Below, one piece after another: positions 6,540 through 44,742 of a DNA stretch of 64,000 nt. Source of the DNA: Prorocentrum cordatum (Eukaryota > Sar > Dinophyceae > Prorocentrales > Prorocentraceae); NCBI GenBank assembly GCA_963575745.1, contig CAUYUJ010006557.1, positions 511,501 through 575,500 on the forward strand. The letters run 5' to 3'. The notes below the pieces were generated by a model that was given only the letters and a program-made list of their open reading frames with translations, was not told the DNA's origin and searched no databases. The position numbers and the translations under genes are program-made. Position 1 is the first letter of the stretch. The number at the start of each line of letters is the position of its first letter.

Positions 6540-6762
6540 TCGACCCCCCCAGGTAGCCCCGGCTGGCCTCAGCAGGCCCCCCGAGTGGTCCGGCCTCAAC
6601 AGGCCCCCCGAGTAGCTCAGGGCGGTCTCAACACCCGGGCGCCGCCCCCGGCGGCGCCCCTGGGGCGCTCCGCGCCCAAGCGTAGGGGTGCTGAGACCGC
6701 CGCGGACTACTCGGGGGGCGTGTTGATGCCAGCCGGGGCTACCTGGGGGGCCGTCTGCGCGC
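6540..6762. repeat. Long imperfect palindrome, about 200 bp
   Basis: The left half (AGGTAGCCCCGGCTGGC, CCCCCCGAGTAG, GGCGGTCTCAACACCC) reappears inverted on the right (GGGTGCTGAGACCGCC, CTACTCGGGGGG, GCCAGCCGGGGCTACCT). The left arm contains an extra internal duplication of GGCCTCAACAGGCCCCCCGA. At the centre GGGCGCCGCC pairs with GGCGGCGCCC around a 3-base loop, followed by a second small hairpin (GGGCGC-TCC-GCGCCC). Confidence 0.7.
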
Positions 6763-7423: not shown

Positions 7424-7951
7424 TCAAGGCACCAGCCACCCGGCCCGCCGCGCCGGCTCGTCAAGTAGGGCCGCGGCCAGGAAGTCACAGCTCTTCTCGT
7501 CCAGCACCCCGCCCTGCTGTAGCCTCTGGAGGACCTCGGCCTTGGAGGTCCACGGGATCCTCACCTCCTCCCCGTTGAAGTGGATCGTGAGCTCGCCCTG
7601 AGGCGGCGCCGCTCTGCAGCCCTGAGGAGGAGGAGGAGGAGGAGGAGGAGAACGAAAAGGAAAGCCATTCGGCCGAGGAGGGGCTGGGACCGTCGCGGCT
7701 TCGCTCGTCGTCGGTCGCCCCTTCGGTCGTGGCTCGCGCGCCGCGGAGCCATTAAAGAGAAGACAAAGAGGCACCGCAGCCGCGGCGGTCACCCCGACCG
7801 CCACGCCCAGGACCAAGGAAGAGGCCGGGCACCGCCGCGCCAGGACCCAAAGAGGACAAGACAGGCTGCTCATCAGGCTGGCGGCCGCAGCCAGCACGCT
7901 GGAGCAGCACCACAGCTCGCAGCAGCCCCAGCGCCACCAGCAGCACGCCAT
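7424..7951 (-). CDS. Hypothetical protein, single exon or last exon
   Basis: From the ATG at 7951 the minus strand encodes about 175 residues. A Cys/Trp-rich hydrophobic N-terminus (MACCWWRWGCC, then Ala/Leu-rich and GVAVGVTAAAAVPLCLL), possibly membrane-associated, is followed by a basic Pro-rich linker with a poly-Pro run coming from a GGA/CCT microsatellite. A globular-looking C-terminus (ELTIHFNGEEVRIPWTSK, then AEVLQRLQQGGVLDEKSCDF) precedes the stop. Third positions of the C-terminal codons are strongly GC-rich, as in real coding sequence here. The frame stays open up to 8071, but there it crosses a structured hairpin repeat, so the internal start is preferred. I do not recognise the family. 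It lies head to head with the coiled-coil gene starting near 8160. Confidence 0.45.
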   Translation of the reverse strand: MACCWWRWGCCELWCCSSVLAAAASLMSSLSCPLWVLARRCPASSLVLGVAVGVTAAAAVPLCLLFNGSAAREPRPKGRPTTSEAATVPAPPRPNGFPFRSPPPPPPPPQGCRAAPPQGELTIHFNGEEVRIPWTSKAEVLQRLQQGGVLDEKSCDFLAAALLDEPARRAGWLVP

Positions 7952-7974
7952 GACGCAGAACTGGAAGCAGCAGC

Positions 7975-8138
7975 GCGGCGCCTCGAGGGAAAGGTGGTCA
8001 GGAGCAGGGGCCACACACCTCGAGGCGTCGCAGCGCGGCGCTGGGAAAAGGTGGATAGGAGCAGGGTCCACAGCTCAGGCGCCAGCGCAGGGCCCAGGGG
8101 AAAGGTGGTCAGGAGCAGGGACCACAAACCCTGGGCCC
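7975..8138 (+). repeat. Structured hairpin cluster 1: three AGGAGCAGG hairpins
   Basis: Three hairpins share the loop AGGAGCAGG. Inner stems are GTGGTC/GGCCAC (7994-8014), GTGGAT/GTCCAC (8051-8071) and GTGGTC/GACCAC (8105-8125). Each is enclosed by an outer stem of unrelated sequence: 14 bp with one G-U (7975-7988 with 8018-8031); 5+4+4 bp with single bulges (8033-8045 with 8074-8088); and 10 bp (8090-8099 with 8129-8138). Inner and outer stems are separated by GAAAG or AAAAG on the 5' side and two or three bases on the 3' side. Spacing is 57 and 54 bases. The cluster lies between two divergent reading frames. Confidence 0.85.
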
Positions 8139-8159
8139 GCAGTGGGTGAGCAACCATAG

Positions 8160-10759
8160 CCTTGGCGGAGATCTGCATACAAGAGCAAGAGCTCCTGGAG
8201 CCGCTCCGAGTCGAGAAAGAAGGCCGCCGTTCACATCCAGGAATTCACCCTCAGCAAGAGGCAGCAGGCCATCGCCGACGCAGTGCTCGAGCTTCCTTTC
8301 TCCAGATCTCGCGACCACGAGTCCTTCGGCCTCCCGCCAGGGGACCCTGACATGAGGAAGCTGTGGACGAGGAACCTCCAACAGAGGCTTGGCCGAGTTG
8401 CTGATCAGATCACCGGCGCCCAGTCTGCCAAGGTTGACGCCAGCAAGTTGCTTACCGAGGCCTCGGTCGTCAAATGTATGCTCGCGATGGCCACTGATCC
8501 ACGCGTACGGCTACAACAATATCGGTCTCAGATAGAGGTGCTGGCAAATGAGCAGAAAGACATCCACGAGAAGAAGGAAGCCCTCCAGACAAAGGCGGAC
8601 GCCAACACCCAGCGCATCTCCGACCTGCGGCGCCTCATCACAGACGTCAAGATGGAGATTGCCGCCGAAGCCGACACCGATTGCGAGGCCGACTCCGAGG
8701 ACGACATGAAGAAACACAAAAACAAAAGGGCCAGCACCCCATTCCGCCGTCGCGCCAGTCGAGAGCCTCCTTCCTCGTGCTCGAGCAGGCCGGCCTCCCC
8801 ATCAAGCACCATCGCAGAGCAGCTCAGGAGAAAAAACGAGGAAGCACGCCGAGAAGGAAGGAGCCAAGCCAGCATCGCCAACGCCGAGCTCCGCAAAAAG
8901 TCAGAAGAATAATTATGAGGAGGTGGAGGCCATGCGGCAGTGCTTTGCCGAGCTGAAGATGCAAAATAGAGACAGGTTCGTGCATCACGAGAAGGAGCTA
9001 TCCAAGACGACCATGAATGCCACCGAACAAGCTATATCAAGGAACACCGAGGCACTCCGCCGACAAGAAGCTCAGCAAGAGCGTGCATTCCAGCATCGAG
9101 AAGAGCTTGTCCATCAGTTCTACGCCGAGAAGATGCAGCAGGAAGCGCAGAGGACCGAGAACCACGAGCGCGCGTTGCGACACGACCTCGATCGTCAGAA
9201 GCTCACCCACGAGCAGAAGCGCCAGAACGGCCCCCAGGCTTGCACCGCACCAACCTCTGAGGAAGCAGCCCGCCAGCAAACGATGAGCGAACAACTTCGT
9301 CGCGAGTGCGAACGACTGCAGCGTGAGGGCCAGAGGATCGAGCAGATGAACCAGGACCTCCGTCTCGAGGAGCAGGCCGTGCAAGTCATGGCGGCCCAGG
9401 AGATGCAAAGAAAAAAACGACATTGCTGAGCAGATCGCGGAAGCCCAAGCAGACCTACAGCGAGAGGAGATCCACCAAGAGCATGTGATCCAGCAGCAGA
9501 CCGCCACTGCCGCCAACAAGCTCTTGGAGGAACACTCCGCGGTCCAGAGGGAGCGAGAGGTGGTCTATCAGCAGGCGGAGCTCCAGCTCGAGGCGCAGCG
9601 CCACATCCAGAACAAGTGCGACCAGCTCGAAGCCAAAGAAGCGGAGCACCAACGGGCTACCCAGCAGCACCAGCTCTTCTTCAACGAGGCCCAGGCTCTC
9701 CAGCAGCAGATGCACCACAAGAGCAAGTACGACCAGCATCAACGTGAGCAGTTCCTGGAGAGATACGGCCAATACGAGGCAGAGATACACCAGCAGCAGC
9801 AGCTCGCCATCTCTGAGCTACAAGCCGCACTGGCACAAAGACAATCACAAGAAGAGCATCATCGTGAACAGCGGGCCCGACAACAGGAAGAGCATCGAGT
9901 ACACAAAGCGCTCCTCGAGAAGACCCTTCGGGAGCAGCTCGACAGCATCGCACCCAGGATCGATACTGACATGCTCGACGGCGTCGCCAGTGCGCTAACC
10001 ACGGAAAACGAGAAGCAGAAGATGCAAACCCGAGCCGACGACAAGGCCTACCAACGGGACAACATACGCTCCGCCCTCCACGCCATCGCTCCGTCGCACG
10101 AGTTCGACTACGACGTGACCCGTGAACCGCGCTACGCCGAACTAATCCAGATGGCGACCCCGAGCACTGCAGTACATCGCGGCGCTCCCTCATCTTCAGG
10201 ATCTTCGAATGGCTCAACGCCGCCCTTCTACTGCAGCCTCTGCAAGTCGCGCGGCAACTACACCAGCGCCAAGACGGAGATCATCAGGTGCAGGCACGGT
10301 GGGAGCGAGAACATCGAAGATCGCTCCGTGGACCTCGGCTACAACTGCACGCACCCAGCTACTCAAAAGCCCCACCAAGCCACCGACCCGCACAACAACC
10401 CGCAGACACAAGCACCAACACACCGCCCACCACCACTCCCACCACCAGCGACGACGCCGCAACCACTCGGCTCCCTCATCGACCCCGTATCCCCCTCGGG
10501 AGTTGCTCCGACGCCAGTTGCGGGAGACGGAACGACCCCGAAGACTCCGAAGACGCACGAAGTACGAGACCTATGTTGCTTCACATCAGCAATTTGGCCC
10601 CTGCTGACTTTTTTCAAAATAATATATTGGGATGAAACGCTGCCGCTGGATATATCGAGCACAGTTGATCACAACACAAACGCTCCTGCGATCCCCGCCA
10701 AAATGGCAAGAAATGGTAAGCTCAGATCCGCATGGCTACATTGCAACCGAACCGCTTGA
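8160..10759 (+). pseudogene. Coiled-coil protein gene, reading frame interrupted twice
   Basis: One protein-like reading continues through three frames. The first runs from 8160 (after a stop at 8157-8159) to about 8899, including KKAAVHIQEFTLSKRQQAIA and SQIEVLANEQKDIHEKKEAL. The second runs to about 9412 and the third to a stop at 10759. Each break is a one-base excess at an A run (A5 at 8895-8899, A7 at 9411-9417). The middle and third parts are almost entirely Gln/Glu/Arg-rich heptad sequence, a long coiled coil. Near 10225-10350 a Cys cluster (YCSLC, then CRHGG and YNCTHP) could bind zinc, followed by a Pro/Thr-rich tail. Codon use is GC3-rich. No ATG is seen at the 5' end of the first frame, so an upstream exon or shift is possible. 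It could be a host structural protein or an ORF1-type protein of a retroelement; I do not recognise it. The last 100 or so codons after about 10570 look non-coding. Confidence 0.55.
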
Positions 10760-10881
10760 CCACCATCTCGACCGAACTGGCGGAATTCGACCACGCGTCC
10801 GACAAAATACGTTCGACGAGGGATGCGCTGCACAATGCCCCGGCCACGGGCAGCGCTACGAGGGAAAGCGGGCCCTTCGAT

Positions 10882-11074
10882 GTGTCACTTTCAGCGCCCG
10901 TGAAAGTGACACCTCCCAGGGCCCACTTAAAGAGCACCAGAAAGGCTCCAAGAAGGCCCCGAGAAGGCCCCAGGGCGGCACCAAGAGGGCTCCCAGAGGG
11001 ACCCAAGAGAGGCCCCAAGAAGGGCCCAAGAGGGCCCTCCGCGGTGTCACTTTCAACGCCCGTGAAAATGACAC
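10882..11074. repeat. Pair of direct-repeat hairpins (GTGTCACTTTCA stem)
   Basis: 10882-10912 is a 12-bp perfect hairpin, GTGTCACTTTCA and its complement around GCGCCCG. 11044-11074 repeats it with loop ACGCCCG and one stem mismatch. Both are followed by CCTCCCAGGGCCCACTTA. The 130 bases between are low-complexity CCCAAGAGGCCC-type sequence. Confidence 0.75.
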
Positions 11075-11149
11075 CTCCCAGGGCCCACTTAGGGCCTCAG
11101 AAAAGCTCTAAGAAGGCCCCGAAAGGGCCATAGAGAGCCGCCCTGGGTT

Positions 11150-11560
11150 CAACTCCGCGTGGCGGAGTTGGAAGCGATAACTTCAATACCCTACTGGAGG
11201 CCTCTTAGGGGCCCTAAGACGGCACTGAAGAACCCCATCGGGGCTTTTTCAAAGGCAGAGGAGGGCGCAAAAAGGGGCCTCAGTGAGCCCCTGGTCTAAC
11301 TCCACCTGGCGGAATTGGAAGCGATATCGCCCGGCGCCTTCATGGAGCCGCTCGGAGCTTCCAAGACGGCTCCAGAAGGCCCCAGGAGGGCCCCAAGAGG
11401 ATCGAACGACGATTCCTGGAAGTGCACCAGTGAGACCCTTGTTGACCTCCGCCTGGCGGAGTTGGAAGCGACAATTTCCAGTGCCCTCTTGGGGCCTCTG
11501 GGGGGCCCCTCAGAAAGCTTTGGGGAGCACAGTGAAGGCCTTCGCAGGGCCGCGTGAGAG
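11150..11560. repeat. Tandem repeat of about 147 bp with a small hairpin at each start
   Basis: CAACTCCGCGTGGCGGAGTT begins near 11152 and is followed by GGAAGCGATA. Diverged copies begin near 11298 and 11447 (spacing 146 and 149). The first forms a 9-bp stem with a 3-base loop, the third a shorter one. The remainder of each unit is CCAAGACGGC-type low-complexity sequence. Confidence 0.6.
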
Positions 11561-11704
11561 CCGTACCAGGGCCGCATGTGTGCGCGGATGGGGGCGACGA
11601 GTGCTGACGCTGACGAATATGAGAATGATGAGGGCGATCAAGGCTGGCCCGAAACAAATCCTGGCGCCATTGCAGGCCGCCGATTATCGGCCACGCCGCC
11701 AGGA

Positions 11705-11905
11705 CGACGCCAAGCAACAAAACGACACCAACCAACAAACCGACACCAACCAACAAACCAACAAATCGACACCGGCCAACAAAAGGACACCAAGCAACAA
11801 AACGACACCAAGCAACAAAACGACACCAACCAACGAAACGACACCAACCAACAAAACGGCACGAATCAACAAAACGGCACTGACCAACCAAACGACAAAT
11901 CACTT
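11705..11905. repeat. 18-bp minisatellite (CAACAAAACGACACCAAC)n
   Basis: Roughly ten degenerate copies of an 18-base unit that stays open in several frames (Asn-Gln-Gln-Asn-Asp-Thr in one). Because the unit length is a multiple of three, an open frame is expected without selection; no gene is inferred. Confidence 0.8.
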
Positions 11906-12162
11906 CACGACACCAATGAACAACGCGAAATCCACCGACCGCCAACCAAGCATAAAATCAACCGACACAACGAAACCAACCCATAGAGCCAGACCAACCA
12001 CTGGATTCGTGAGTCGGGGTAGTCATGGAAGTGAGCCGCTGCAGCCCGCGGAAGCCATTAACAGTGACCAGAGCACCGCAATGCAGCAACGTCCCCGGGC
12101 GGCGGCGGGAGTCTTGGATCTCCCGCGGGACTGGAGCGTAGCGAGTTCGTCCTGGGTCCGGT

Positions 12163-12218
12163 TTAGTGAAGTGAAGAATTTCGGGGTGCTTGCATGGCAA
12201 AAACCTTCACTTCACTAA
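12163..12218. repeat. 14-bp perfect inverted repeat
   Basis: TTAGTGAAGTGAAG at 12163-12176 is exactly complementary to 12205-12218, with a 28-base loop. A second short palindrome (CTGGGGC...GCCCCAG) follows at 12221-12241. Function unknown. Confidence 0.7.
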
Positions 12219-12369
12219 TCTGGGGCCCCTGGAGCCCCAGGGCGTTTCAGGTCCCCTCGCTGTCTGGGTAGTCCAGGGGGCGCAGTGGCGGCTTACCAGA
12301 GGCCCTGTTCCCTAGCCTCACTTGCTTTCACCCGTGGTGCTCGACGGCCGTCTCGGAGCTGTCTTGTGG

Positions 12370-12665
12370 CGGTCTGGGGCAATCCCGAAGCCTCTTGGAG
12401 CCATCCCAAGGCCCCAAGGCGCCACCAATGGGGGCCCCAAGAGAGCTCCCAGAGGGCCCCGAAAGGCCTACAACAGATTGCACGTTCGCGCGAATTCTTT
12501 GTACCACTTTGGGGGGTCCCTCTTGGGGCCCTCGGGGAACGTTCTTGGGGCCCTCCGAGGGCCCACTGGGGCCCCGGGAAGGCCCCAAGAACGCTCCCAG
12601 AGGGCCCCAAGAATGCTCCAAGAGGGCCCCAAGAGGACCCCCACAAGTGACAAAAACTATTTGCA
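12370..12665. repeat. Low-complexity CCCAAGAGGC-type tract
   Basis: Degenerate decamer-like repetition of CCAAGAGGGC / GGCCCCAAGA, as at 10920-11050, 42370-43010 and 45120-45900. Open frames on both strands are by-products. Confidence 0.6.
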
Positions 12666-12689
12666 TGAGGGTGCAACTTACTCAGCGCC

Positions 12690-13165
12690 TCTTGGGGCGC
12701 TCTTGGGCCGTGCTGGGCGCCACTCGTGGACGACATGGGCTGGGGGACGGCATGTGGACCCTGTCGCTTGGGCCATCGGGGGTGCTCCCCAATGGGGCCA
12801 CGAAGCTTCTGAGCGTATGACGGAATGGGCTGGGCGGCGGCCTGTGGGCCCTGCCTGTGGGGCCGTCGGTGTAGCTCCCCGTGGGGCCACGAAGCGTGTG
12901 AAACGTATGCCGAAATATGCTGGGCGGCGGCCTGGGAAACCTGCCGCTGGGACCTTTTTTTGGTGGAGCTGCCTATAGGGGCACGAAATGTTTGAGGGTG
13001 TCATCAATGTGGCCTGGGCGACGGCATGTGGACCTTGCCGCCGGGACCTCCGATGAGCTCCTCATGGGGACACGAAGCGTCTGAGGGGCGTGCCGACATG
13101 GGCTGGGCGGCGCACTAAGGACCCTGCCGATGGGGCCTTCGGTGGAGCACCTCACAAGGCCACGA
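12690..13165 (-). repeat. Hairpin minisatellite E, copy in minus orientation
   Basis: About five units of 78-90 bases. Read on the minus strand they contain CTTCGTGGCCCCATGGGGAG and CTCCACCGAAGGCCCC, the same core as the long array at 35.6-37.2 kb. The core folds as CTTCGTGG against CCACCGAAG with an inner CCCC/GGGG pairing. Confidence 0.75.
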
Positions 13166-13212
13166 GACTTGCGGGGGATGTGGCGAAGCAGAGACGCGGG
13201 GGAACAAGGGGG

Positions 13213-13322
13213 GTGTTTTGATGATGTTGATGAGGATGGTGGTGGTATTGATGATGGAGACGACGAGAATGCTGATGATGCTGATGATGATGGTGATGGC
13301 GACGATGACGATGGACGATGAC
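13213..13322. repeat. (GAT)n-type microsatellite
   Basis: Impure GAT/GAC/GGT triplets. On the minus strand it lies between a conserved leader (13440-13388) and minisatellite E, the same order as leader, TCC tract and minisatellite E at 35.2-37.2 kb. Confidence 0.85.
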
Positions 13323-13387
13323 GACGGGGACACGCGGAGAGCAGGGGCAGATACGCGAAGAGGGAGGACGAGGGAGGGGGCCGGAAG

Positions 13388-13440
13388 GAATGACGCGGGG
13401 CGGTGTCTCTTCAAAACGAAGAACCAACACTGCAATATGG
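13388..13440 (-). repeat. Leader segment of the minisatellite E family
   Basis: The minus strand reads CGTTTTGAAGAGAC preceded by TGTTGG and CCAT. The plus strand at 35245-35300 has the same words at the same spacing (AACCATCC...GTGTTGG...CTCGTTTTGAAGAGAC). The copy supports a compound repeat of leader, triplet tract and minisatellite. Confidence 0.6.
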
Positions 13441-13559
13441 TAGGAAATTTCTGGACGACCCCCCCCCGTGGCGCGGTCAATGTCCGCGACAGCATCGCTG
13501 GCACTACGAACGAAATGATCGAACTCTTCCTGCGACGTTACCCGCGGGGTGGATCAGCC

Positions 13560-14586
13560 AGGGATGGGGGTCGAAACCGCCCCAGCGCAAAACAAATGTA
13601 CAATCCTGAGAAACCCCAGCCCACATCAACCGATCCGCAACAAGCACGCAAGCCTCTCGGAATGACCTCGGACTTCATGGAACGTCGAATGGAAAACATG
13701 AAAAACCGCCCTGTGGGCTCCGAGACCCAAAATTACTGATGTGAAGGATTTCGGCTCGTCGACGAAGGATTCGTGGCCGAGACATCCACACCACCCCCCA
13801 CACGACACGCAGAGGACCAGAGCTTCGACGACCCCAACGACCACGACCTCCGCGACTCAACCAGAGCATCGCCGACCCCCCCCCCCCCGACGAGCAACCG
13901 ACACCTATTGCCTCCTGGGGAGCAGGCCCCTTCCTGCCCCCCCCCCCCCCCCGACACCCATGGCCGCCCCCCTACAGAGGGCACAGTCCTTGCCGCTCCC
14001 CAAAGAGCCCATTTCCCCACGACATTTCCGACCGTCCCACGCACAGACAACTTTTTTGGGGAACCCTGACTCCCCCCCACGCTCCCCAATTACGCTCGAA
14101 GTCGGCTCCCCCTTCGCACCCACCCAACCATATTCCCCGAAACCACTTCCAGCACGATTCCACATCGCCACTCCCGACCGCGCCAGATCGGCACCACCGC
14201 CGGCACTCCGAAGGGCAAGCACTCACAGCAGGCCCGCGCGCAAAGTACGGATCCTGGATGACGGCGACGGACGCGACAACCCAATGGACCGCGGGCGCTT
14301 CAACCCCGAGGGTCAGGGGGGCAGCTCGGGCTCAAGCTCAGACACGACAAAAAAACTGAACAGGACTTCCCCCGCTGGGGGGCAACTGCCTCAGCGGGGG
14401 AGCCCCGCCACAACCTCGCCAGAAGACCGAGCACCTAGCCCGCTCAGAGTGGCTACACGTAACAACCAGCTCGACGGAGCAACCACTGAGCCCCAGCAGA
14501 CGCGCTGCGCGACCCGCGCGGTGCCAGACACTCAGCGACAGGCCCAGACGCCTTTAGACACAAAAAAGCAAAACCAATTAAAATAT
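13560..14586 (+). pseudogene. First ORF of the LINE: Pro/Thr/Ser-rich protein, no recognised domain
   Basis: Frame 1 of this part (to a TGA at 13738-13740) contains NPEKPQPTSTDPQQARKPLG and GMTSDFMERRMENMKNRPVG. The same frame continues beyond the TGA as VAETSTPPPTRHAEDQSFDD to about 14050. After a one-base shift somewhere in the C or T runs (13878, 13937-13952, 14049-14055) coding-like sequence goes on (RKVRILDDGDGRDNPMDRG) to a stop at 14587-14589. The composition is rich in Pro, Ser, Thr, Arg and Gln. That fits a disordered nucleic-acid-binding ORF1-type protein, but no zinc knuckle, RRM or coiled coil is visible. The start is not identified. A one-base deletion in the A run at 14580-14583 would join it directly to the RNase H reading frame. 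Confidence 0.5.
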
Positions 14587-16423
14587 TAGCTTCAACGCTA
14601 TCAGCGAGTGGATAATCTACTCGACCGCGGCGCCTTGGGACCAGCACTACGACCATGGCAGCGCGCAGGCACTAGCAACCACGACTGCGCCAACCGTCGG
14701 ACCGAGGACCATCCCCTCGGCCGACAACCGCAGTGCACCAACCACCCTACCTAGGCGGCCAGCGAGGCCAGACGGGGCAAGCCCCCATCGACCCGACCGA
14801 CCCGCTCCCCAGAGACGAGCCCAGCAGAGGGCGAACCAGGCGACCAGCCACTTTGGCCCAAAGGCGCCGTATCACTTTTCTCCTGAAGCGCCGAACGAAG
14901 AGCCCCACCAGGAGGCCAGCCGACGTCAGCAGCAGCAAGAAATGCAGCTGCCGCAGCAGCAAGGACTGCAACAACCTGAGGAGCAACACCAAGACTTACT
15001 CCACAGGCGCCCTTCGGCTGGACCTCGGAAACTCCCCGAAGCCGGCTTCTCTGCATCGCCATGCTCTCCCCCTAGAGAGTCTCACAGGACCTCCAACGGC
15101 CCACCAGAGGATAAGCCAGCCAACGCCACGGGACCAAAAGCGGCGCCACTGCAGATGCCCTGGATGCGCAGCCAAGCGGCGCAGACGCCCAGAGGAGCCG
15201 ACGCAGCACCGCCCGTCCCTGCGGCAGCCAACTGCGTGGATCCACGAGAGATCCACGACGTCGAAGCCACATACCTCGACGCCAAGCATACCGACAGGGG
15301 ACGCGCCATGCAACCCTTCCGCTCTCGAACCTCTGCTACTCCCCCCCTCTCAACATCGACGCGCCTGTCCGACGCCCAAGCGCAGCCGCGCACCGAGGGC
15401 CAGCGTCGACATCGAGCAAGAGGGAAGGCCATTAAACCCTTCAGGGCTACCAACGTCAAGCCCCCAGTACCACCCAACCAGCCAGCGACAACACTCGACA
15501 GGCCACCCCCGCTGCTAGAGCAGCGCAGAGTACAATTCGACGAGCGACCAACCATCCGACAAACGATACAGCAATCCCCATCTCCCCACATCACCCTTGT
15601 CCTATGCGACGAGAGACTCAACGAGACAGCCGACTACATGCTCCGTCGCCGCCCACAACGACCACTCCAGGAAGGAGCAAAGATCCATCTCTTCACGGAC
15701 GGTTCCAAAAACCCAAAGAAGCCGAGAGACGATGCCTGGTCCGTTGTGATCGTAGGTGACGACAACCGCGGTTTCAGCTTCCAGGGGGCCATCATGGGGA
15801 AGCACAAGAGCGGCACCGACATCGCCCTCAAGGACAACGTCGAGCACGAGATCACCTCCACGACTGTCGAGATCACAGCCATTATATGGGCCTTCGCCTG
15901 GGTGGTACACTACAACCCCCATCACATCACCACGATATCCACGGACTCGCTCGGCGCCCTGCAGCTCGCGACGAGGCTCGCCTTCACCGACCGCGACCCC
16001 AAGCTCGTCAGGACACTCTGCATCCTCTACGACATGGTCAGCAACAATATCGACCTGCAGCACGTCCACGCCCACGACTACAACCCGTGGAACGAGGTTG
16101 CCGACGCCGCCGCCAACCACGGACGCCTGCAAGAGGTTACACCTCCTCAGCCAGAGTGGGCAAGCGTCATGGATGGCGCATCCCAGCGGGACTGGGAGTT
16201 CCTGATCGACGCGGATCCCAACACTAGGGAGGCATACCCCGCATTCGGCCACGGCAACCTCACAGCTAACAGGGTCGAGACGTCCGCCGAGGCCCGACAC
16301 TTTCACAACCCCAACGAGTCCAGCGACAAGAAGATCATAGTAGAAATAAACATCGCGACCTTCAACATCCAGTCGGGGAGAGAGCCAAACGGAAGGATCG
16401 AAGCGTCGAAAAGAGAATATTAA
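14582..16423 (+). CDS. LINE ORF: Gln/Pro-rich region, RNase H domain and first strand of the endonuclease
   Basis: Open in one frame from 14582 to the TAA at 16421-16423. The first 350 residues are low-complexity (poly-Gln near 14930-14970, then Pro/Arg-rich). About 15680-16135 encodes a complete RNase H: IHLFTDGSK (first Asp), TTVEITAI (Glu), ISTDSLGAL (second Asp) and HAHDYNPWNEVADAAANHG (His and last Asp), so all catalytic positions are present. It hydrolyses the RNA strand of RNA-DNA hybrids in family members. The ORF ends just after IATFNIQSGREPNGRIEA, the opening strand of an APE-type endonuclease whose remainder lies in the next frame. Stops at 16421, 16424 and 16430 separate them, so the break falls inside one domain and is damage, not a natural ORF end. 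GC-rich third positions support coding. Confidence 0.75.
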   Translation, partial: NISFNAISEWIIYSTAAPWDQHYDHGSAQALATTTAPTVGPRTIPSADNRSAPTTLPRRPARPDGASPHRPDRPAPQRRAQQRANQATSHFGPKAPYHFSPEAPNEEPHQEASRRQQQQEMQLPQQQGLQQPEEQHQDLLHRRPSAGPRKLPEAGFSASPCSPPRESHRTSNGPPEDKPANATGPKAAPLQMPWMRSQAAQTPRGADAAPPVPAAANCVDPREIHDVEATYLDAKHTDRGRAMQPFRSRTSATPPLSTSTRLSDAQAQPRTEGQRRHRARGKAIKPFRATNVKPPVPPNQPATTLDRPPPLLEQRRVQFDERPTIRQTIQQSPSPHITLVLCDERLNETADYMLRRRPQRPLQEGAKIHLFTDGSKNPKKPRDDAWSVVIVGDDNRGFSFQGAIMGKHKSGTDIALKDNVEHEITSTTVEITAIIWAFAWVVHYNPHHITTISTDSLGALQLATRLAFTDRDPKLVRTLCILYDMVSNNIDLQHVHAHDYNPWNEVADAAANHGRLQEVTPPQPEWASVMDGASQRDWEFLIDADPNTREAYPAFGHGNLTANRVETSAEARHFHNPNESSDKKIIVEINIATFNIQSGREPNGRIEASKREY

Positions 16424-16438
16424 TAAGCTTAGTCCACG

Positions 16439-19400
16439 ATGGCCTGCCTGTGCGACGAGGACCTCCGTATCATTGGCATTCAGGAGGCAAGGGCGCCTTG
16501 GGGTGTCCGCGACGCAGGACACGATGACGACGCCAGATGCGCCAACGCCAACTGCTACCACACCATCTCCAGCAGCCACAAAGGGTTCAATTACGGCTGC
16601 GAGCTGCATGTTCTACTCAGCAAGCCCTACGGCAAGAGCTGTAAAAAAGGAGGTCTTCTTCGAACCCGACCAATTCACAATAATTGTCAAGGACCCCAGG
16701 CCCCTTATCGCCCTCGTTGCCGCCCCTGGCTTCAACCGCGTGCTTGCCGTCGCCCACGCCCCGCGCTCGAAGGCCCTCGCGACCGAGAAGGATAGCTACT
16801 GGAAGAAGCTCGCGGAGACCACCGAAAAGCACCAAGTGAACATCATCTTCTTCGACGCAAATGCCAAGACAGGCAACATCACCAACACGGCCATCGGCGA
16901 CAAGGGCTTCAAGCAAAACGAGGACCCAAACGGACACCGTCTACATGAGCTTCTCCTGAACAACCACCTAGCGGCCGCCAACACCTTCGCCAGCCATGGA
17001 CCAGAGCACCACACCTGGCACTCGGGCAAGGACCCTCATCGCATCGACTACGTCATCATCCCCAAGGGCTACATCGACTCTATCGAAGAGTGCGCCGTGC
17101 TCTGCGGCATAGACAGCGACCAAGACCCAGAGACCAAGGACGACCACTACCCAGTCAAGCTGCAGCTGGCCTACCATATCGTCTCGTCCGTCACCAAAGG
17201 AGTCCCTGAGTTAGACGAGAGCAAGCTAGCCGACGAAGGGTGCCGCAAACAGTCCAGCCAAAAACTCGACGGGGTCAAACACCCGCCCTGGGACACCAAC
17301 CTCAACGAGCACCTCGCCATAGTCACCGAGAAGGTCACGGAAGCTGCGCACGAGTGCTTCCGCTCAAACGGCCGCGCTCCACGCGAGCCCTACATCGCCA
17401 GGCGGTCCTTCGCACTCCTGCGAGTTCGCCGCTCGATACTCAAGACGACGCGGATCGCCGAGAAAAACGGGATTGTCAACCACTTCGGTGACAAGAGGCT
17501 ACGCCACACGGCCAAGATCATAGCGAAGGAAGCTCTCCTGCCCGACCCCGCCGACGTTAGTGCCCTGGCCGATCTCAGCGACTACGCGAAACTGGTGGTG
17601 GCCTCTATCATATTCAGCACTTCCAGCCTAGCGACCTCTGTCGTGGAACCCGACGAAGCCAACGCCGTGCACAGCGCCCAGCACTGCTTTGACGCTCTTC
17701 TTCAATTCCTCGGGAAGTCTAAGTCGACCCTACAGAAGTGGATCACGACAGACCGCGACGACTTCCTCGAGAGGACCGCCGATGAGATGGGCACAGCGAT
17801 CGACGACCACGCCCCCCGTTTAGAGGCCCTGTACGCGAAGCGACTACCAGCCTTCGGAGGACGAAAGTCCAAGAAGCCGCCGACGCCCATCATCCGCACC
17901 AACGACGACGGGGAGCCCCTCACGACGAAGAGCGAGATCGCCGACCACGCCCTGGCCTTCTACGGCAAAGTTGAGCAGGCTAAAGCCACGGATGCAGACG
18001 GGGTAGCAGCCGACTACAATAAAAGGACCGGCCACGAAGGGCCAGGACCTAAGATCCAGAACATACTACCCAAGCACCAGCTGACCAGCCAGCTCGCCGC
18101 CGCCAAGCGAGGCCGCCGAGGCGGCCCCGACCAGCTCACCGACGACATGTCCAGAGCCAGCCCTGAAGGGATGGCTCGCCTGCTCCACCCTGTCCTAGTC
18201 AAGACCCACTTCGAGAGCACCGAGCCGATCACCGCCAAGGGTGGGGACTCCACGTATTTCCACAAGGGGCAGGGGGCCATGGAGCTCCAGGAATCCTACC
18301 GCGGCATCCTGCTCAACAACACCATCGGCAAGATGCACAGCAGCTTCCTCCGCTCCCGCGTGAAAGGCCTGCTGCCTGAACTCCTAGAAGCAACCCAGTG
18401 TGGCGCTCGACCAAAGATGGCCACGGATTTCATCACTCACACCAGCCTCGCCTTCGTCAGCGACTGCCAAAGGAGATCAAGATCATGCAGCATCACCTTC
18501 CTGGACCTCAGGGAGGCCTTCCACTCCGTCATCAGGGAATTATGCATGCAATTGCCGACCACCGCCGACGAGCTTAACGAGCTCATCGAACGGATCGGCA
18601 TTCCCGACTTCATCAGACCAGCGCTAAAGGAACGACTTCAGCAGCCCGCCTACAAAAACCAACACATCGACGACGGGCACCTCTGCCACATGATCGCTGA
18701 TCACCACACCTCCAACTGGATGACAGCCAAGAGCGCAAGGCACTACCAGCTGCCTCGGACCAGCACCCGACCTGGAGTGCCATGCCCGGACGTCGCCTTC
18801 AACATACACTTCCCCATCATGCTGAGGGCAATCGACCAGGCAGCCCGAGAGGAAGAGGCCCACGGCCAGCAGATAGGCGGACACGAGATAGAGGCCTGCA
18901 GCAAGCCTCTCTTTTCACCTACCCCTCACGAAAGAAGCGCGCTCAGGAACATGTCCTTCGTCGACGACCTCACAGACTACACGACCGCTCTGGCAGCTGC
19001 CAGGCTCTGCGCAGCAGCGTTCCAGCATGGCCTGAAGCCACGCCCAGAAAAAACCAAGGCCATCCTCATGCACTACGGCGCAGGGGACAAGAAGGAGAAA
19101 CAGCGGGTCGCCAAGGAGGGCATCACATACCTCGAATTGGACGGACTTTCTATCAAGGTGCAGCTAGTAACGCAACAGAAAAACCTCGGTACCATCATCT
19201 CGGCGGGCGGGGTCATGGGACCAGAAATCTGCCTAAGGGTAAACCGCGCGCTCGGGGCAGCCCGGCCTCTCGAGAAGCAGATCCTCCGCCGCAAGAAGCT
19301 CTCGAAGAAAGCCAAGGTGAAGTACGTCCACTCGTTTTCGACATCCTCGCTGACATACAACCGCCACGTCTGGGGCGACCTGGCCCTGAAAGACCTGAAG

Positions 19401-20291
19401 CACATATCCGCCACGTACATAGGCCCATGCCGCGTGGCAGTCGCGCTACCCAAGACCAACTCACCCGACCAGCACATCTCCGAAGCCGAGGCAATCGCCA
19501 AGACAGGAGTACCCGACCTCATCACTCACCAGTCGATAGCGCGGCTACGATACTTGCCAAGACTCCTGAATCATGCCCCAGCGGTCCTACTCCAGCTACT
19601 CGACGGCCAGCGCCAACGACAGGGCACATGGGGCCGCCAGCTTAAGAAAGACTTCGACTTCCTACGAACGCACCTGCCAAAAGAGAGGTGGCCCAGCCAA
19701 ACCCAACACGACCGCGACATCACCAACTGGGCCCGACAGAAGCCGAAGCTATTCACCAACGCAGTCAAGGCAGCTTCGAAGGCCTACATTCTCCACATTC
19801 GCGACCAAGCTCAGGGCGCTAAGCTCCAGAAGGACATCCAGATGACCTCAGCAGCTCACCCAACTGAAGGCCTGGACCTCTGCGACGACAACAACAACCA
19901 GAAGTACGTCTGTCACGGCTGTGGCCGAGTCGCCTCCAGACAAGGCATGTTAATCCATATGGGCAGGGATCATCCAGACCACGAAGACCCGCGCTTCTGG
20001 GCGACAGGCACCGCGTGCCGATGCTGCCAGACCGAGCACCACTCTCTGCCGAGGCTCATAAAGCACTTATCGGTGGCCCACCGCTGCCGCAAATCCTGGC
20101 ATGCCTGGCGCATCCAGACAGACGATGGAGCCTCTGACGGAGCAGCAAATAACAGAGAACCTCGCCGCCATCGCCGAGGCCACAAACGCCAACAAGAAGC
20201 AAGGACGGCACCCAACCTTCAGCGACAAGCCAGCCCACCCGTGCGATGTTACGCCGCTGCCGCTCCTCGAGACGTCGCCCGTCGCACCTAA
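16439..20291 (+). CDS. LINE ORF: APE-type endonuclease, reverse transcriptase, C-terminal zinc-finger region
   Basis: The endonuclease resumes at 16439 (MACLCDEDLRIIGIQEAR, with the catalytic Glu) and changes frame at the A6 run 16643-16648. It continues through VAHAPRS, IIFFDANAKTG, HTWHSGKDPHRIDYVIIP and DDHYPVKLQL (to about 17180). The reverse transcriptase follows after a helical linker. ITFLDLREAFHSV (18498-18530) carries the first catalytic Asp, TRPGVPCPDVAFN the G-x-P motif (about 18768), FVDD (18957-18968) the two catalytic Asp, GLKPRPEKTKAIL the next motif and KNLGTIIS the L-G motif. Near 19905-20095, YVCHGCGRV...H...H and ACRCCQTEHH...H...H form two Cys/His finger-like clusters. The role inferred from the family is target nicking and target-primed reverse transcription. 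From 16650 to 20291 the frame is uninterrupted, which suggests a rather young insertion. Confidence 0.85.
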
Positions 20292-21080
20292 AGTATTCGC
20301 CAGACTTGAGCCATCTCCAACCAGTCCACCCGCGAGCTCGCCTGCAGAACCCGCCGAGCGCCAAGAGATCGTCGTCGTCACCGACCGCCCTCGACAGGCC
20401 GCCGACCTCCAGCAGATCATGGCCAGCAACGGGATCACGAGCACCAGCGGCCTGGACTACGCCCAGATCGCAACCCGCAGCGATGGCCAGACCCCAGAAC
20501 TAACGCCAGAACTTCGGCGAGTACAACGCAGGACCCTCCATGGCGAGATAGCGGCCATCTACGTAGAGTTCCCACGACGAACCTGGTACTTACACGATGC
20601 AAGCGACGTTCTAGGCAGCAGAGCAAGCAAGCGGCGCACCCCAGAGGCACCCTGGGGGGCGCCTCAAGTCTCCGAGACCATCGCCGACGATATTTTCGCC
20701 GCCAACAACGTCACGCGAGAGGTCTTGCGCATGCTCTTCATGGCGACCACGACCGACATACCATGTGTCGCAGCCATCTCGGCGGAGCCGATCATCAGAC
20801 AGACTCCCGAATATCGGTACATCGCCAACCTGTTGACTATCCACGAGACCCCGACAAATCACTACGACCTCGGCGCCATGCAGATCCTCGACAACGGCGC
20901 CCGCGACGACCTCCGCAACTGTATGACTACGGCAAACGAAGGGGAGATTGACTTCGCCATCGCCGACCTGCTCGACGGCAACATCGCGGCTAGACGGGGC
21001 CTCAGAACCGCAACCGTTGCGCCCACCAGCCAGAACACGAACACCAGCGACGCCTACTACGTAGAACGAGAAGACGAAGC
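20101..21080 (+). CDS. LINE 3' ORF of unknown function
   Basis: From the ATG at 20101 (or 20128) a plus-strand frame shifted +1 to the polymerase ORF stays open to 21723; coding-like composition ends near 21080. It reads MEPLTEQQITENLAAIAEAT, later QRRTLHGEIAAIYVEFPRRT and ANEGEIDFAIADLLDGN, with GC-rich third positions. It overlaps the polymerase ORF by about 190 bases. In the overlap this frame looks more protein-like, so either a +1 shift near 20110-20150 fuses it to the polymerase or it is a separate overlapping ORF. No domain is recognised; the middle is mixed alpha/beta-like with little low complexity. Position after the zinc-finger region suggests a LINE-encoded C-terminal domain. Beyond about 21080 the open frame runs into 3' repeats. 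Confidence 0.55.
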
Positions 21081-21145
21081 GCCGCCTCATGCCGAAGACG
21101 AACGCCACGATGGGCATCATCGACGACAAGCTCAAGGGCGTCAGG

Positions 21146-21266
21146 GCGCAAGTCATGAGGAAGCCCCGAGTGCGCGGGAACACCTCAGGCAGCGTCGCCA
21201 AGATGCGCAAGAGGCGTTAGGACGCAAGTCCTGGGGAAGCCCCGAATGCGTGGGAACACCCCAGGC
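21146..21266 (+). repeat. Two diverged copies of a 47-bp sequence in the LINE 3' region
   Basis: GCGCAAGTCATGAGGAAGCC (21146) and GACGCAAGTCCTGGGGAAGC (21220) start two copies that continue as CCCGAGTGCGCGGGAACACC and the like, 74 bases apart. They mark the change from coding to 3' untranslated sequence. Function unknown. Confidence 0.6.
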
Positions 21267-21960
21267 ACAAGTCGCCGCGTTTTGTAGTATTGCTGAAGGC
21301 AGCGGCCGCACGAGCACGAGTTCAGCGGAGACCTGTGAGCCGCATTACACACTCCCTCCACTCTTGCCAAACACCACCGACCAGCTACAATCCACGACCC
21401 AAAGGACGTCATACCACACCACCTCACAAGTCAACGCTGCCCTGGTGAGGCAAGGATCAAACTTCGAGACGGGCTCGACGGGTGGGGGGCAGGACGAGTA
21501 CTACCCGCGCCTGCCAGGGGGGATGGTGAGGGGCAGGGGGGTAGGACGGCCACTACCCGCGCCCCCGCGGTCCGCCCTAGCTCGCCACCCCCACCATCCC
21601 CATGGCGAAGGTGGTGCTTACCCGATCGCCCAAGCGGCGAAGCAGAGGGCAGCCGAGACATTCCTCACCGACGACAGCAGCAAGCACCAGGCCTGGGGTT
21701 CGCCCCCACCGAGGGCACCGTGACCCCTAGCCATAGCGGGACGAGGTGGGGCCGCCACGAACCCCACTTGAAGTCGGTGCATGGAGGCCTTTCAAATGCG
21801 CCCATAACCCATACCACAACCCCAGCAACAATCCGACTCCCCCACGTCCGACCCATAGACCTTCAAGACGACCATCCTCAACCCTTGGGACTCACCACCG
21901 ACCGGCCACCCACCCCGCAACCACCATCCATCCAACAACCATCGCCACCTCGATACAACC

Positions 21961-22394
21961 TGCCCGCTGAAAGGAGGACAGGAGAAGGGTCCTCAGCAGC
22001 GCGGCACGACGCAAACATGACAGAGCCCGCTGAAAGGAGGACAGGAGCAGGGTCCTCAACAGCGAGGCTCGACGAGCATGCCCTGGAGACGTCGAAAAGG
22101 AGGACAGGAGCAGGGTCCTCAGAACAGACCGCTAGCAGGCACGCCCGCAGAAAGGAGGACAGGAGCAGGGTCCTCAGCTGTGAGGCAGAACAAAGACAAA
22201 CAACCCTTGAACCTCCAACCCACCAACAACAACCATCACCTCGGCTTGACCAGCCCGCTGAAAGGAGGACAGGAGCAGGGTCTTCAATTTCAGCTGAAAG
22301 GAAGACAGGAGCAGGGTCTTCAACAGCTCTGAAGATAATGAACGCATGGAGGCCGCCCATAAGGAGGACAGGAGCCGGGTCCTCAGAAGCGGCG
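21961..22394 (+). repeat. Structured hairpin cluster 2: seven AGGAGCAGG hairpins
   Basis: Inner hairpins lie at 21974-21994, 22037-22057, 22100-22120, 22155-22175, 22265-22285, 22301-22321 and 22364-22384. The loop is AGGAGCAGG in five; the first has AGGAGAAGG and the last AGGAGCCGG. Stems are mostly GAGGAC/GTCCTC, but 22265 has GAGGAC/GTCTTC (G-U) and 22301 has GAAGAC/GTCTTC, a compensated change. Most are preceded by CGCTGAAAG. The outer stem is 5 bp, one bulged base on the 3' side, then 3-5 bp: 21961-21969 with 21997-22006, 22023-22032 with 22060-22070, and 22143-22150 with 22178-22186. The last copy uses GCCGC/GCGGC instead. Spacing is 36-110 bases, often 63. Five of the seven lie in one open frame as RRTGAGSS, with a one-residue variant elsewhere, but copy 4 is in another frame. 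Confidence 0.85.
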
Positions 22395-22439
22395 TTCAGC
22401 ACGCACGACATCATAGAGGAGTTCTCGCCAAGAGAAGGA

Positions 22440-22692
22440 GGCGGCGCACCGTGCGCCGCGGCGAGGCCGTCCCCAGCCCACGGGCCGAAGGGGGGCACGG
22501 CCCGCCCCCCGTGTAACATACGGGGGCCGCCAGCTCAGCCGAGCTGCCACGCGGCAAGAGAAGGTCGGGCGCCCCTCAGCTCGCGAGCAAAGGAGGCGCG
22601 CCCGTCGCAAAGAAGTTCGGGAAGGACGAGTTCGGGGCCCACCTGAGGCCGTCGGACTGACGGGCTACGCCGCGCCCCCCGTCGGCGCGGCA
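22440..22692 (+). repeat. GC-rich palindrome cluster in the LINE 3' region
   Basis: Consecutive short hairpins: GCGGCGCAC/GTGCGCCGC near 22442-22460, CCCCCGT/ACGGGGG (22506-22512 with 22520-22526), CAGCTC/GAGCTG (22531-22546) and GCCGCGC/GCGCGGC (22669-22691). No gene is seen. They follow directly on the AGGAGCAGG cluster. Confidence 0.6.
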
Positions 22693-22724
22693 CAGAGCCC
22701 TCACTGAAAGGGTTCGCTGAAAGG

Positions 22725-22995
22725 ACGAGGAGGAGGAGGACGAGAAGGAGGAGGAGGAGGAGGGGAGGAGGAGGAGGAGGAGGAGGAGGAGGAGGGGGAG
22801 GAGGAGAGGAGGAGGAGGAGGAGGAGGGGAGGGGGAGGAGGGGGAGGAGGAGGAGGAGGAGGGAGGAGGAGGATGAGGATGAGGAGGAGGAGGAGGAGAG
22901 GGAGGAGGACCAAGAGGGGAGGAGGAGGAGGAGGAGGGGGACGAAGAGGAGGAGGAGGAGGAGGAGGAGGAGGAGGAGGAGGAGGAGGAGGAGGA
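22725..22995. repeat. (GGA)n microsatellite, 270 bp
   Basis: Almost pure GGA with occasional GAGGG and GAT variants. It may be the simple-repeat tail of the LINE or an independent expansion. The poly-Ser, poly-Leu and poly-Gly frames are artefacts. Confidence 0.95.
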
Positions 22996-22999
22996 GCAG

Positions 23000-35573: not shown

Positions 35574-35599
35574 ACCCCCCTTCACTTTGGCACACCCAT

Positions 35600-37240
35600 C
35601 ACACGCTTCGTGGCCCCATAGGAAGCTCCACCGAAGGCCCCAGTGGGACCGCCCGCATGCGCCAGCCACCACCCAGTACAGCGTTTCGTTGCCCCACGGG
35701 GAGCTTCACTGAAGATCTCAGTGGGACCGCCCGCATGCGCCAGTCACCACCCACTACGGCGCGTCGTGGCCCCATAGGGGGCTCAACCGAAGGCTCCAGT
35801 GGCGCCGCCCCTTGCGTCAGCCACCAACCAGTACAGTGTTTCGTGGCCCCACAGGGAGCTCCATCGAATCTCCCAGAGAGACCGCCCGCATGCGTCAACC
35901 ACCACACAGTACAGCACGGTTCATGACCCCATAGGGAGCTCCACCGACGGCCCAAGTGGCACCACCCGCATGCGCCTGCCACCACCCACTTCGGCGCGTC
36001 GTGGCCCCATAGGGGACTCAACCGAAGGTCCCAGTGGCACCACCCGCATGCGCCTGCCACCACCCACTTCGGCGCGTCGTGGCCCCATAGGGGACTCAAC
36101 CGAAGGTCCCAGTGGGACCGCCCGCATGCGTCAGCCACCACAGCGTTTCGTTGCCCCATAGGAAGCTCCACAGACGGCCCAAGTGGCACCGCCCGCATGC
36201 GTCAGCCACCACCCAGTACAGCGCTTCGTGGTCCCATATGGAGCGCCACCGAAGGTCCCAGTGGGCGTCAACCACCACCACGTACAGCGCGTCGTGGCTC
36301 CGTAAGGAGATCCGCCAGAGGCCCCAGTGGCACCGCGCGGATGCGTCAGCCACCACCCAGTACAGCGCGTCGTGGTCTCATAGGAAGCTTCACCGAAGGT
36401 CCTAGCGGGACCGCTCGCATGCGTCTGCCACCACTCACTACGGCGCTTCGTGGCCCCATAGGGGGCTCATCTGAAGGCCCCAGTGGCACCGCCCGCATGC
36501 GTCAGCCACCACCCAGTACAGCGCTTCGTGGCCCCATAAGAAGCCCCACCAAAGGTCCCAGTGGAAGCGCCCGCGTGCGTCAGCCACCACGCAATACTGC
36601 GTTTCGTGGCCCCTCAGGGAGCTGCACTGAAAGACCCCAGTGGCACCGCCCGCATGCGTCGTCCACAACTCAGTTCTGCATTCCGCGGCCCCACTGATTG
36701 GGAGCTCCACCGAAGGACCCAGTGGCACCGCCCGCATGCGTCAGCCACCACCCAGTACAGCGCTTCGTGGCCGCATCGGGAGGTCCAGTGGTCCGCCCGC
36801 ATGCGACCCCCCAACCAGTACAGCGCTTCGTGGTCCCATAAGGAGCTCCATCGAAGGCCCCAGTGGCACCGCCCGCATGCGTCCCCTCTCTCAGTGCAGC
36901 GCTGCGTGACCCCATAGGGAACTCCACCGAATGTCCCAGTGAGACCGCCTGCATGCGTCAGCCACCACCCAGCACAGCGTTCCGTGGTCCCGCAAGGAGC
37001 TCCACAGACAGACCCCAGTGGCACCACCCGCATGCGTCCCCCCAAACAGTACAACGTTTCGTGGCCGCATCGGGAGCTCCAGCGAGGGGCACCGCCCGCA
37101 TGCGTCCGCCACACCCAGTACAGCGTTTCGTGGCCCATAAGGAACCCCATCGAAGGCCCCAGCGGCACCGCCAGCATGCGTCTCCCCACCCATTACAGCA
37201 CGTCCCTCACGCGTTTCGTGGCCCCGTAGGGGGCTCCATC
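35600..37240 (+). repeat. Hairpin minisatellite E, 78-bp unit, about 21 copies
   Basis: The typical unit runs CGCATGCGTCAGCCACCACC, CAGTACAGCGCTTCGTGGCC, CCATAGGGAGCTCCACCGAA, GGCCCCAGTGGCACCGCC, 78 bases in all, with many substitutions and small indels. CTTCGTGG pairs with CCACCGAAG and CCC with GGG inside, so each unit can form a hairpin. Since 78 is 26 codons, all frames can remain open for several units (a 26-residue repeat on either strand). Indels break the frame repeatedly, so I do not call a gene. The flanking leader and TCC tract recur at 13.4-12.7 kb in opposite orientation. Confidence 0.9.
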
Positions 37241-37244
37241 GAAA

Positions 37245-43010: not shown

Positions 43011-43314
43011 AAGCATCTTGACGACGACTCTATTTCGCCCCATCGAGAGACGACCCCCAGGGAACTGCTTCACCATCAAAACTCCCCACGCAACGCGTCC
43101 GAACGACACCCGCCCCCAAGAGCGCAACATGGGCAACGAACACACAGACAAAAACCAGCGATGCCATATCACGGGCCGGCGGAATGAGCGAAGCGATTCA
43201 ATTAGTTCTAGGTCCGTTTGAAGTATACTGAAGGTCTGGCCGAAACTCTGCTTCAAATCTGATTCCCCCAGGCGGCCCTTGGGTTTCCCGGGCGGCCTCC
43301 AGGCGGCCCCGGAA

Positions 43315-44711: not shown

Positions 44712-44742
<31 letters not shown>

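Follow-up and report, generated by a model that had tools for sequence, protein, structure and literature searches.

A 64,000-nucleotide stretch of the Prorocentrum cordatum genome (assembly GCA_963575745.1, contig CAUYUJ010006557.1, positions 511,501 to 575,500 of the forward strand), referred to here as the window and numbered from its first letter, carries ten short hairpins that bracket a degenerate retrotransposon of the long interspersed nuclear element (LINE) or non-long terminal repeat (non-LTR) type, ~15 kb in length (7651-22721). Three of the hairpins lie at 7994-8125 and seven at 21974-22384, all on the plus strand, and each consists of a 6-bp inner stem and a 9-nt loop. This loop is exactly AGGAGCAGG in eight of the ten and one base off in the other two. 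Positions, strand and loops are as first described in an initial annotation of this DNA, which recognised the two clusters but missed that both belong to one LINE. The hairpins are part of the element at both of its ends, are conserved as structures at the nucleotide level and are present in a second, distant LINE family. Individually they are as follows.

7975-8031, plus strand: 5' hairpin H1, inner stem 7994-8014, outer stem of 13-14 bp
8033-8088, plus strand: 5' hairpin H2, inner stem 8051-8071, outer stem with two 1-nt bulges
8090-8138, plus strand: 5' hairpin H3, inner stem 8105-8125, outer stem of 10 bp
21961-22006, plus strand: 3' hairpin P1, inner stem 21974-21994
22023-22070, plus strand: 3' hairpin P2, inner stem 22037-22057
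22095-22122, plus strand: 3' hairpin P3, inner stem 22100-22120, outer stem decayed in the window copy
22143-22186, plus strand: 3' hairpin P4, inner stem 22155-22175
22257-22294, plus strand: 3' hairpin P5, inner stem 22265-22285, without a 3' outer arm of its own, a 27-bp deletion having apparently removed it
22292-22328, plus strand: 3' hairpin P6, inner stem 22301-22321 (GAAGAC/GTCTTC)
22347-22398, plus strand: 3' hairpin P7, inner stem 22364-22384

The module is built of a variable outer helix, a small and nearly invariant purine internal loop (AAG on one side and A on the other), the 6-bp inner helix and the fixed purine loop. All 60 pair cells of the inner stems are standard and three of the six pairs are changed on both sides among the ten hairpins, in the variants originally listed. 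The G-U pairs that had been taken for intermediates between compensated states proved to be something else: the three in the inner stems of the window (7994, 8051 and 22265) are private to the window copy, the fetched relatives having GACCAC, GTGGAC and GTCCTC, respectively, at these places. The pattern of a helix, a bulge and then more pairs reported for five copies stands, with 4 bp rather than 5 before the bulge at 8051 in the fold. The outer stem at 22100 (P3) is weak here, as reported, but this is a decayed copy and the family consensus pairs GTCG with CGAC. That at 22265 (P5) looks like a by-product of the 27-bp deletion, the spacing being 36 instead of 63. When the 3' array was folded over 481 nt, the minimum free energy structure contained five of the seven hairpins, P5 (22265) and P6 (22301) being absent.

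When both strands of the window were searched allowing at most one loop mismatch and requiring a stem of at least 5 bp, the ten hairpins were the sole matches, and a covariance model scored them at 43.4-50.5 bits against 9.5 bits for the next-best match. When repeated hairpin loops of 5-14 nt were sought without bias, AGGAGCAGG, with its complement, was the sole loop longer than 7 nt in at least three far-apart hairpins; the remaining repeated loops were shorter, or lay within simple repeats or one local satellite. No Rfam family reached its gathering score in the window, weak matches over both clusters being far below it, and a search of the window for the spliced-leader motif found none.

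Throughout the 4.13-Gb assembly (21,875 contigs) the 25-nt core AAAGGAGGACAGGAGCAGGGTCCTC gave 754 matches with three or fewer mismatches, against one for a reversed control. Twenty loci (numbered with the prefix L) were fetched round exact core matches, from at least 33 clusters outside the window. In 17 of the 20 the 3' array is in sense orientation and downstream of sequence coding for element proteins: in eight this is the endonuclease and reverse transcriptase (EN/RT) of the family to which the window element belongs (family 1), in three the ORF3 part only and in six the EN/RT of the second family (family 2). L033 and L046 are apparently 5'-truncated tails, and L038 is the apparent leader of a third family. 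In this look-alike leader, whose ORF1 is 29% identical, a single hairpin at 7683 (sense orientation) has a 7-bp outer stem, CCAGCGG/CCGCTGG. The arrays of 18 loci comprise four to eight hairpins, with two in L046 and one in L038, and the spacing in complete arrays is 63, 63, 55, 110, 63, 63 or close to it. Near the start of ORF1 there are three hairpins in all nine family-1 elements (the window and eight further 5' sides that were fetched); the sole family-2 element checked at its 5' end has two (H1 and H2), and H3 is absent from the family-2 piece L054. The 128 hairpins considered below include one chance match (L043 8238). Pattern scans of viral and prokaryote collections produced only chance matches, and in a rescan of 20 loci there no stem exceeded 4 bp. 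Nothing was returned when viral contigs were scanned with protein guidance, or when the RT protein was run by tblastn against phages and plasmids.

The features of the window element outside the hairpins are listed here; the assignment to LINEs of the non-LTR, APE type was made partly on motifs read by eye, the Pfam scores of RT and of the EEP endonuclease lying below gathering cut-offs.

7624-7650, no strand: (GAG)n microsatellite at the element 5' end, where similarity to relatives begins
7950-10756, plus strand: ORF1, coiled-coil-like by eye, with frames shifted in the window copy, a TAG at 8157 and the ATG at 7950 upstream of H1
15683-16123, plus strand: RNase H domain, N-terminal to the endonuclease (Pfam RNase_H, E 9.3e-6, 26.3 bits against a cut-off of 25.8)
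16331-17186, plus strand: AP-like endonuclease (EEP) domain, motifs by eye, conserved with family 2, frame broken in the window copy
18030-19322, plus strand: reverse transcriptase region with FVDD motif (RVT_1, E 4.4e-4, below cut-off), conserved with family 2
21150-22721, plus strand: 3' untranslated region (UTR), without codon bias or marked third-position excess
22697-22721, plus strand: element 3' end with a tandem GTTCGCTGAAAGG-type tail
22722-22996, no strand: (AGG)n microsatellite after the 3' end

The endonuclease of the window copy has no Pfam match and that of family 2 matches Exo_endo_phos_2 weakly (E 0.037); EEP and RT residues are conserved with family 2, whose frame stays open over 2051 codons in L034, in keeping with endonuclease and RT being encoded in one ORF. 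Among the matches listed in self-comparison, no LTR-like repeat of the two ends of the element was present. Similarity of five loci (L033, L036, L043, L046 and L048) breaks off at various points on the 5' side and the 3' part is retained, consistent with 3'-anchored, 5'-truncated copies. With the RT and RNase H frames as training set, a codon model scored on the plus strand gave signal at ~8.1-10.5 kb and 15.4-21.1 kb and none at the 3' cluster. The reading frames of the window copy are broken and satellite-like DNA lies inside it at 10.8-13.7 kb; H1 is 7.6 kb from RNase H here, as against ~4.5 kb in four relatives (L049-L052). PDB sequence searches gave no match to the RT, NCBIfam gave none, and structure predictions of EEP and RT without alignment were uninformative (mean predicted local distance difference test scores of 34.3 and 34.6). 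The placing of RNase H N-terminal to endonuclease and RT (window 14942-20288; L034:3848-10000) is unusual, the usual domain order of LINEs being different, and family 2 has a C2H2 zinc finger after its RT.

The 3' array does not code for protein. Divergence in the 3' UTR is spread about evenly over the three codon positions, where in the RT control the third position is in twofold to threefold excess, and no marked excess of this kind was seen in twelve comparisons upstream of the array or in five across its flanks. This bears on the proposal that the conserved unit is a peptide, ERRTGAGSS or ERWSGAGTT, repeated within a protein. Nine of the ten window loops share one phase modulo 3, the 5' zone has the look of coding sequence, and several copies have open frames of 300-700 codons running across the 3' array (358 codons in L034, 460 in L042, 536 in L043 and 688 in L048); at the composition of 21721-22640 the chance of 300 open codons is ~6e-4 per frame, and the T-poor composition explains the open frames only in part. 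Set against this are the even divergence of the 3' region, spacings of 55 and 110 that break the frame, variable core columns that fall 5/4/2 by codon position, and 5' cores that freeze third positions, and a protein repeat is accordingly extremely unlikely.

At the other end of the element the hairpins probably overlap the first codons of ORF1. Divergence of the 5'-zone flanks by codon position is 0.10/0.08/0.17 (against nine leaders), compared with 0.10/0.08/0.25 in an ORF1 control (against seven, with L054 and L055 left out), and the frame of the ATG upstream of H1 is open through the hairpins into ORF1 in three of nine family-1 elements (L056, L057 and L058), the others having stops or shifts. 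Third-position columns of this zone vary in one of 27 cases in the cores and in 13 of 42 in the flanks (p 0.006, 9 rows). Description of the zone as a plain 5' UTR was rejected because it looks coding. In a 221-nt context fold the three GC-rich hairpins stand side by side (z = -6.86), and they lie back to back just after the ATG at 7950. Such an arrangement would suit translational control, whereby the hairpins at the ORF1 start, with a protein of the element, would repress translation or shift the choice of start site while the 3' copies act as a sponge or circularise the RNA. Alone, this explanation accounts neither for the four to eight copies in the 3' UTR nor for the apparently 5'-truncated copies that have only the 3' array (L033, L036, L043, L046 and L048), and we regard it as unlikely.

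Conservation of the hairpins is concentrated in their cores. Across ten chosen pairs of copies the cores diverge by 0.02-0.07 (2-7%), the outer arms by 0.07-0.26 and the spacers by 0.09-0.47 (9-47%), with p values for core against rest from 0.011 to 1.7e-17. The initial annotation had raised the possibility of recent tandem duplicates with random stems; these they are not, since the spacing is kept across lineages and the cores are far more conserved than the spacers. The same data bear on a mutational origin. Template switching during DNA replication is a documented mechanism for generating hairpins (PMC8794818), and if it made and repaired perfect hairpins without selection, variable outer stems would fit. 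It would leave the loop unexplained, together with the contrast between cores and spacers and the nearly frozen third positions of the 5' cores, and the persistence across lineages of the spacing and of position-specific arms also speaks against it; this already disfavoured explanation is very improbable. Quadruplexes have a role in LINE 3' UTRs, and the 5' half of most copies fits a two-tetrad motif, so that GG-N-GG-N3-GG-N4-GG might be the functional unit with the 3' arm incidental to it. However, P6, whose GAAGAC/GTCTTC is the family-1 consensus, breaks the second GG and its 3' arm follows suit, and the 3' arm, which is outside the motif, is about equally conserved. A G-quadruplex as the conserved unit thus has very little probability.

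Pairing of the outer arms was assessed by swapping 3' flanks between hairpins. In the window none of 50,000 permutations matched the cognate arms, and within the 3' array alone 16 of 5,040 did; the three 5' hairpins alone gave one of six permutations, too few for a test. The fraction of same-zone 3' flanks that pair at least as well is 0.001 or less for the hairpins at 7994 and 8105, 0.024 for 8051, 0.007 for 22037, 0.07-0.10 for 21974, 22364 and 22155, and 0.24-0.50 for 22265, 22301 and 22100. Among 34 lineage-level hairpins none of 50,000 permutations paired as well as the cognate arms. For single lineages the matching permutations were 2 of 5,040 in family 1, 4 of 24 in L037 and 1 of 120, 3 of 120, 144 of 40,320 and 2 of 120 in the others.

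Compensating changes were counted against shuffles, with the reservation that kinship among rows can inflate all of the counts. Among 55 distinct copies the outer-pair cells changed on both sides number 26, compared with 7.6 in shuffles (reached in none of 500). In 26 distinct lineage-level rows there are 8 against 3.4 (1 of 500), and the same rows without the differently built P3 and P7 give 8 against 1.9 (0 of 500). The number of outer pairs so changed (three in the 26-row set) shows no clear excess, being reached in 177 (55 copies), 154 (26 rows) and 41 (without P3 and P7) of 500 shuffles. For 13 hand-picked rows and both helices together, two-sided cells number 10 against 1.9 (0 of 500). 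Examples include P1, with CGCTG/CAGCG in family 1 and CACTG/CAGTG in family 2, CGCAG/CTGCG in P4, GAAGAC/GTCTTC in P6 and GAGGTC/GACCTA in P1 of L033. Counted in cells, compensating changes are thus in excess among genome copies, and the original description as a selected structure of no named family holds, no Rfam family having reached its gathering score. That description had left RNA and single-stranded DNA side by side; here RNA is favoured by way of the sense RNA of the retroelement, and wobble pairs lend this no support. Wobble strand asymmetry was considered as evidence for RNA and rejected, as the 6 G-U, 0 A-C and 4 other cells of the window have no counterpart in the 128 hairpins.

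Family 2 carries the same hairpins, likewise at both ends, on a very different protein: its EN/RT is 27% identical to that of the window by tblastn and 30% by global alignment. Its member L034 shares 1.13-1.28 kb of 3' UTR in one piece (from L034 6598) with eight family-1 copies at 81-86% nucleotide identity. Within this shared 3' UTR L034 is 85% identical to L044; it matches L032, L037, L040 and L048 in shorter or broken pieces at roughly 75-80%, and L033 at 91% over 0.96 kb. At the 5' end the family-2 segment with H1 and H2 is 95% identical to the window over 123 nt, and the 5' end itself is shared at 71% over 171 nt. Five long family-2 copies (L029, L035, L039, L041 and L047) match L034 at 98-99% identity, and in four of the six (L029, L034, L041 and L047) an open frame exceeds 2,000 codons and reaches the edge of the fetched piece; because of this identity and these long frames family 2 looks recently active.

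Such likeness of the UTRs on very different proteins suggests that end cassettes may have been exchanged rather than have diverged uniformly by descent. It is a tentative possibility that the hairpin is a transferable address tag, either because the machinery of one family mobilises the RNAs of other families in trans, or because distant LINEs swapped whole 5'-start and 3'-UTR cassettes and so kept access to a common ribonucleoprotein (RNP) machinery. Retention of the motif across families with EN/RT only ~27-30% identical would also be explained easily by a conserved binder of host origin, and purine loops are common targets of host RNA-binding proteins. By binding the hairpins such a factor would let the element hijack host export, trans-splicing, localisation, stability or translation. 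We think this rather unlikely, given that the hairpins stand at both ends and are ascribable to LINE sequence in all 20 fetched loci; no hairpin-bearing host gene was seen among these 20 places, all of which were found through the LINE's own core.

The ends of the element lie in simple repeats. At the 3' end the window reads CTGAAAGGGTTCGCTGAAAGG and then ACGAGGAGG. Among 19 copies with an identified 3' end, out of 21 (the 20 loci and the window; the ends of L030 and L044 were read separately, the automatic end being wrong), a GGA/AGG run follows clearly in 14, loosely in three (L031, L036 and L047) and not at all in two (L029 and L040). Alignments to relatives begin at window 7624 for L049 and L052 and at 7626-7628 for L050 and L051, and a GGA-type run was present at all five 5' ends inspected. 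The element thus appears to favour GGA microsatellites, suggesting microsatellite-targeted insertion, and because most ends lie in such GGA/AGG tracts target-site duplications cannot be delimited. The 3'-terminal CGCTGAAAGG of the element (22704-22726) equals the 5' arm and linker of several hairpins (CGCTGAAAGG-AGG), and the array may derive from, or mimic, the 3' junction. Elsewhere in the window a CCCCAAGA-type satellite is dispersed at 10860-13170, 24623, 26084 and 42378-45708, partly inside the LINE copy. Long imperfect palindromes, 67-94% identical to their own reverse complements, occur at 6545-6750, 12478-12676, 40040-40250, 54957-55090 and 60574-60645, and long diverged tandem arrays at 48120-51900 and 35590-37250, the first of them AT-rich (39% GC at 48-52 kb) in a window of ~60% GC.

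Taken together, the conserved structure of the hairpins and their place in the element make it fairly probable that they are cis-acting RNA elements by which the LINE has its own RNA recognised by its RNP and reverse-transcription machinery. The sense RNA would carry three hairpins at the ORF1 start and a 3'-UTR array of four to eight (seven in the window), and a putative element-encoded RNA-binding protein (ORF1p, or the ORF2p endonuclease/RT) would bind the loop and the AAG/A internal loop. Through the 3' array the RNA would be marked out as a template for target-primed reverse transcription, and the hairpins where ORF1 begins would help to load protein onto the same RNA for RNP assembly, perhaps as a switch from translation to packaging. 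Several copies together would provide avidity.

A number of points weigh against this reading. The 3' array is ~340-750 nt from the end of the window element and not at the very end as in UnaL2-like LINEs, and the last ~480 nt differ in family 2; the array is therefore not the terminal priming site. Choosing loci by exact match favours well-kept cores. Hairpins have decayed in many copies: of 128, all six inner pairs persist in 106 and the exact loop in 98. In two pairs of copies, L031-window (0.106 against 0.091) and L042-L048 (0.250 against 0.278), the outer arms are scarcely more conserved than the spacers. Cognate arms have a mean pairing of -13.0, as against -11.8 when the position is kept but the arm comes from another lineage, and -8.9 for other positions of the same lineage; since the same position in another lineage pairs nearly as well, most of the arm signal lies between positions. 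The non-Watson-Crick cells of the 128 hairpins comprise 11 G-U, 12 A-C and 12 others, with no excess of G-U. In family 2 the ATG frame upstream of the hairpins differs from the long ORF1 frame, and in the window the codon score is negative over 7950-8156. Finally, a host factor could be the binder, and it is binding by a protein of the element, with a role in retrotransposition, that we infer.

For most lineages it is an open question how LINE proteins select the RNA of their own element, and a single stem-loop or a poly-A tail is usually invoked. Here the candidate signal is short, has a fixed loop and can be counted and mutated; it lies near both ends of the element and is shared by families with very different enzymes. 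RNA choice, avidity and cross-mobilisation between LINE families are thereby opened to direct tests. The hairpin is also a clean marker for finding such elements in huge genomes. A literature search for the core sequence found no paper, and the titles and abstract starts on dinoflagellate or LINE hairpins were without the motif, which is no proof of its being unpublished.

We know of no likeness in loop or structure between these hairpins and the SIDER2 retroposons of trypanosomatids. SIDER2 is comparable in that its tandem 79-nt hallmark is a tandem structured RNA signature in a retroposon, and is set apart by description, its 79-nt copies being tied to endonucleolytic cleavage and mRNA decay (PMC5509151). 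Closer in host are the SymbioLINE-Dnmt elements (de Mendoza 2018), dinoflagellate LINEs that have endonuclease and RT, lack a poly-A tail and are conserved in both the 5' and the 3' UTR (PMC5890265). Like these, the window element is a LINE with endonuclease and RT in a dinoflagellate; unlike it, they encode a DNMT in ORF1, and the word 'hairpin' is absent from the main text of that report (PMC5890265). In R2 the protein recognises a small core of the R2 3' UTR, and the structured RNA of a non-LTR element gives self-specificity, as is proposed here (PMC10499050). R2 however uses the small core of one 3' UTR fold and a linker read by the protein, and repeated hairpins at both ends are not described in the sections of that paper drawn on here. 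Stringent LINEs require a stem-loop in the 3' UTR, and in ZfL2 the stem is reported to be recognised in general and the loop specifically (PMC5135761). As in this group (UnaL2, ZfL2 and SART1), a stem-loop lies in the 3' UTR of the LINE RNA and a 3' tail is common to different elements. The differences are a spaced array of four to eight copies, with two or three more near the ORF1 start, and the loop AGGAGCAGG; moreover, the sharing here is between LINE and LINE, where theirs is between LINE and short interspersed nuclear element. Of the defining features of stringent LINEs the conserved 3' UTR stem-loop is present, and its position at the very 3' end is not (340-750 nt away in the window, and ~628 nt from the last hairpin to the end in family 2). 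The best reading of this comparison is that the hairpins would act in the manner of the 3' stem-loop of stringent LINEs, but multiplied, placed near both ends and shared between distant families.

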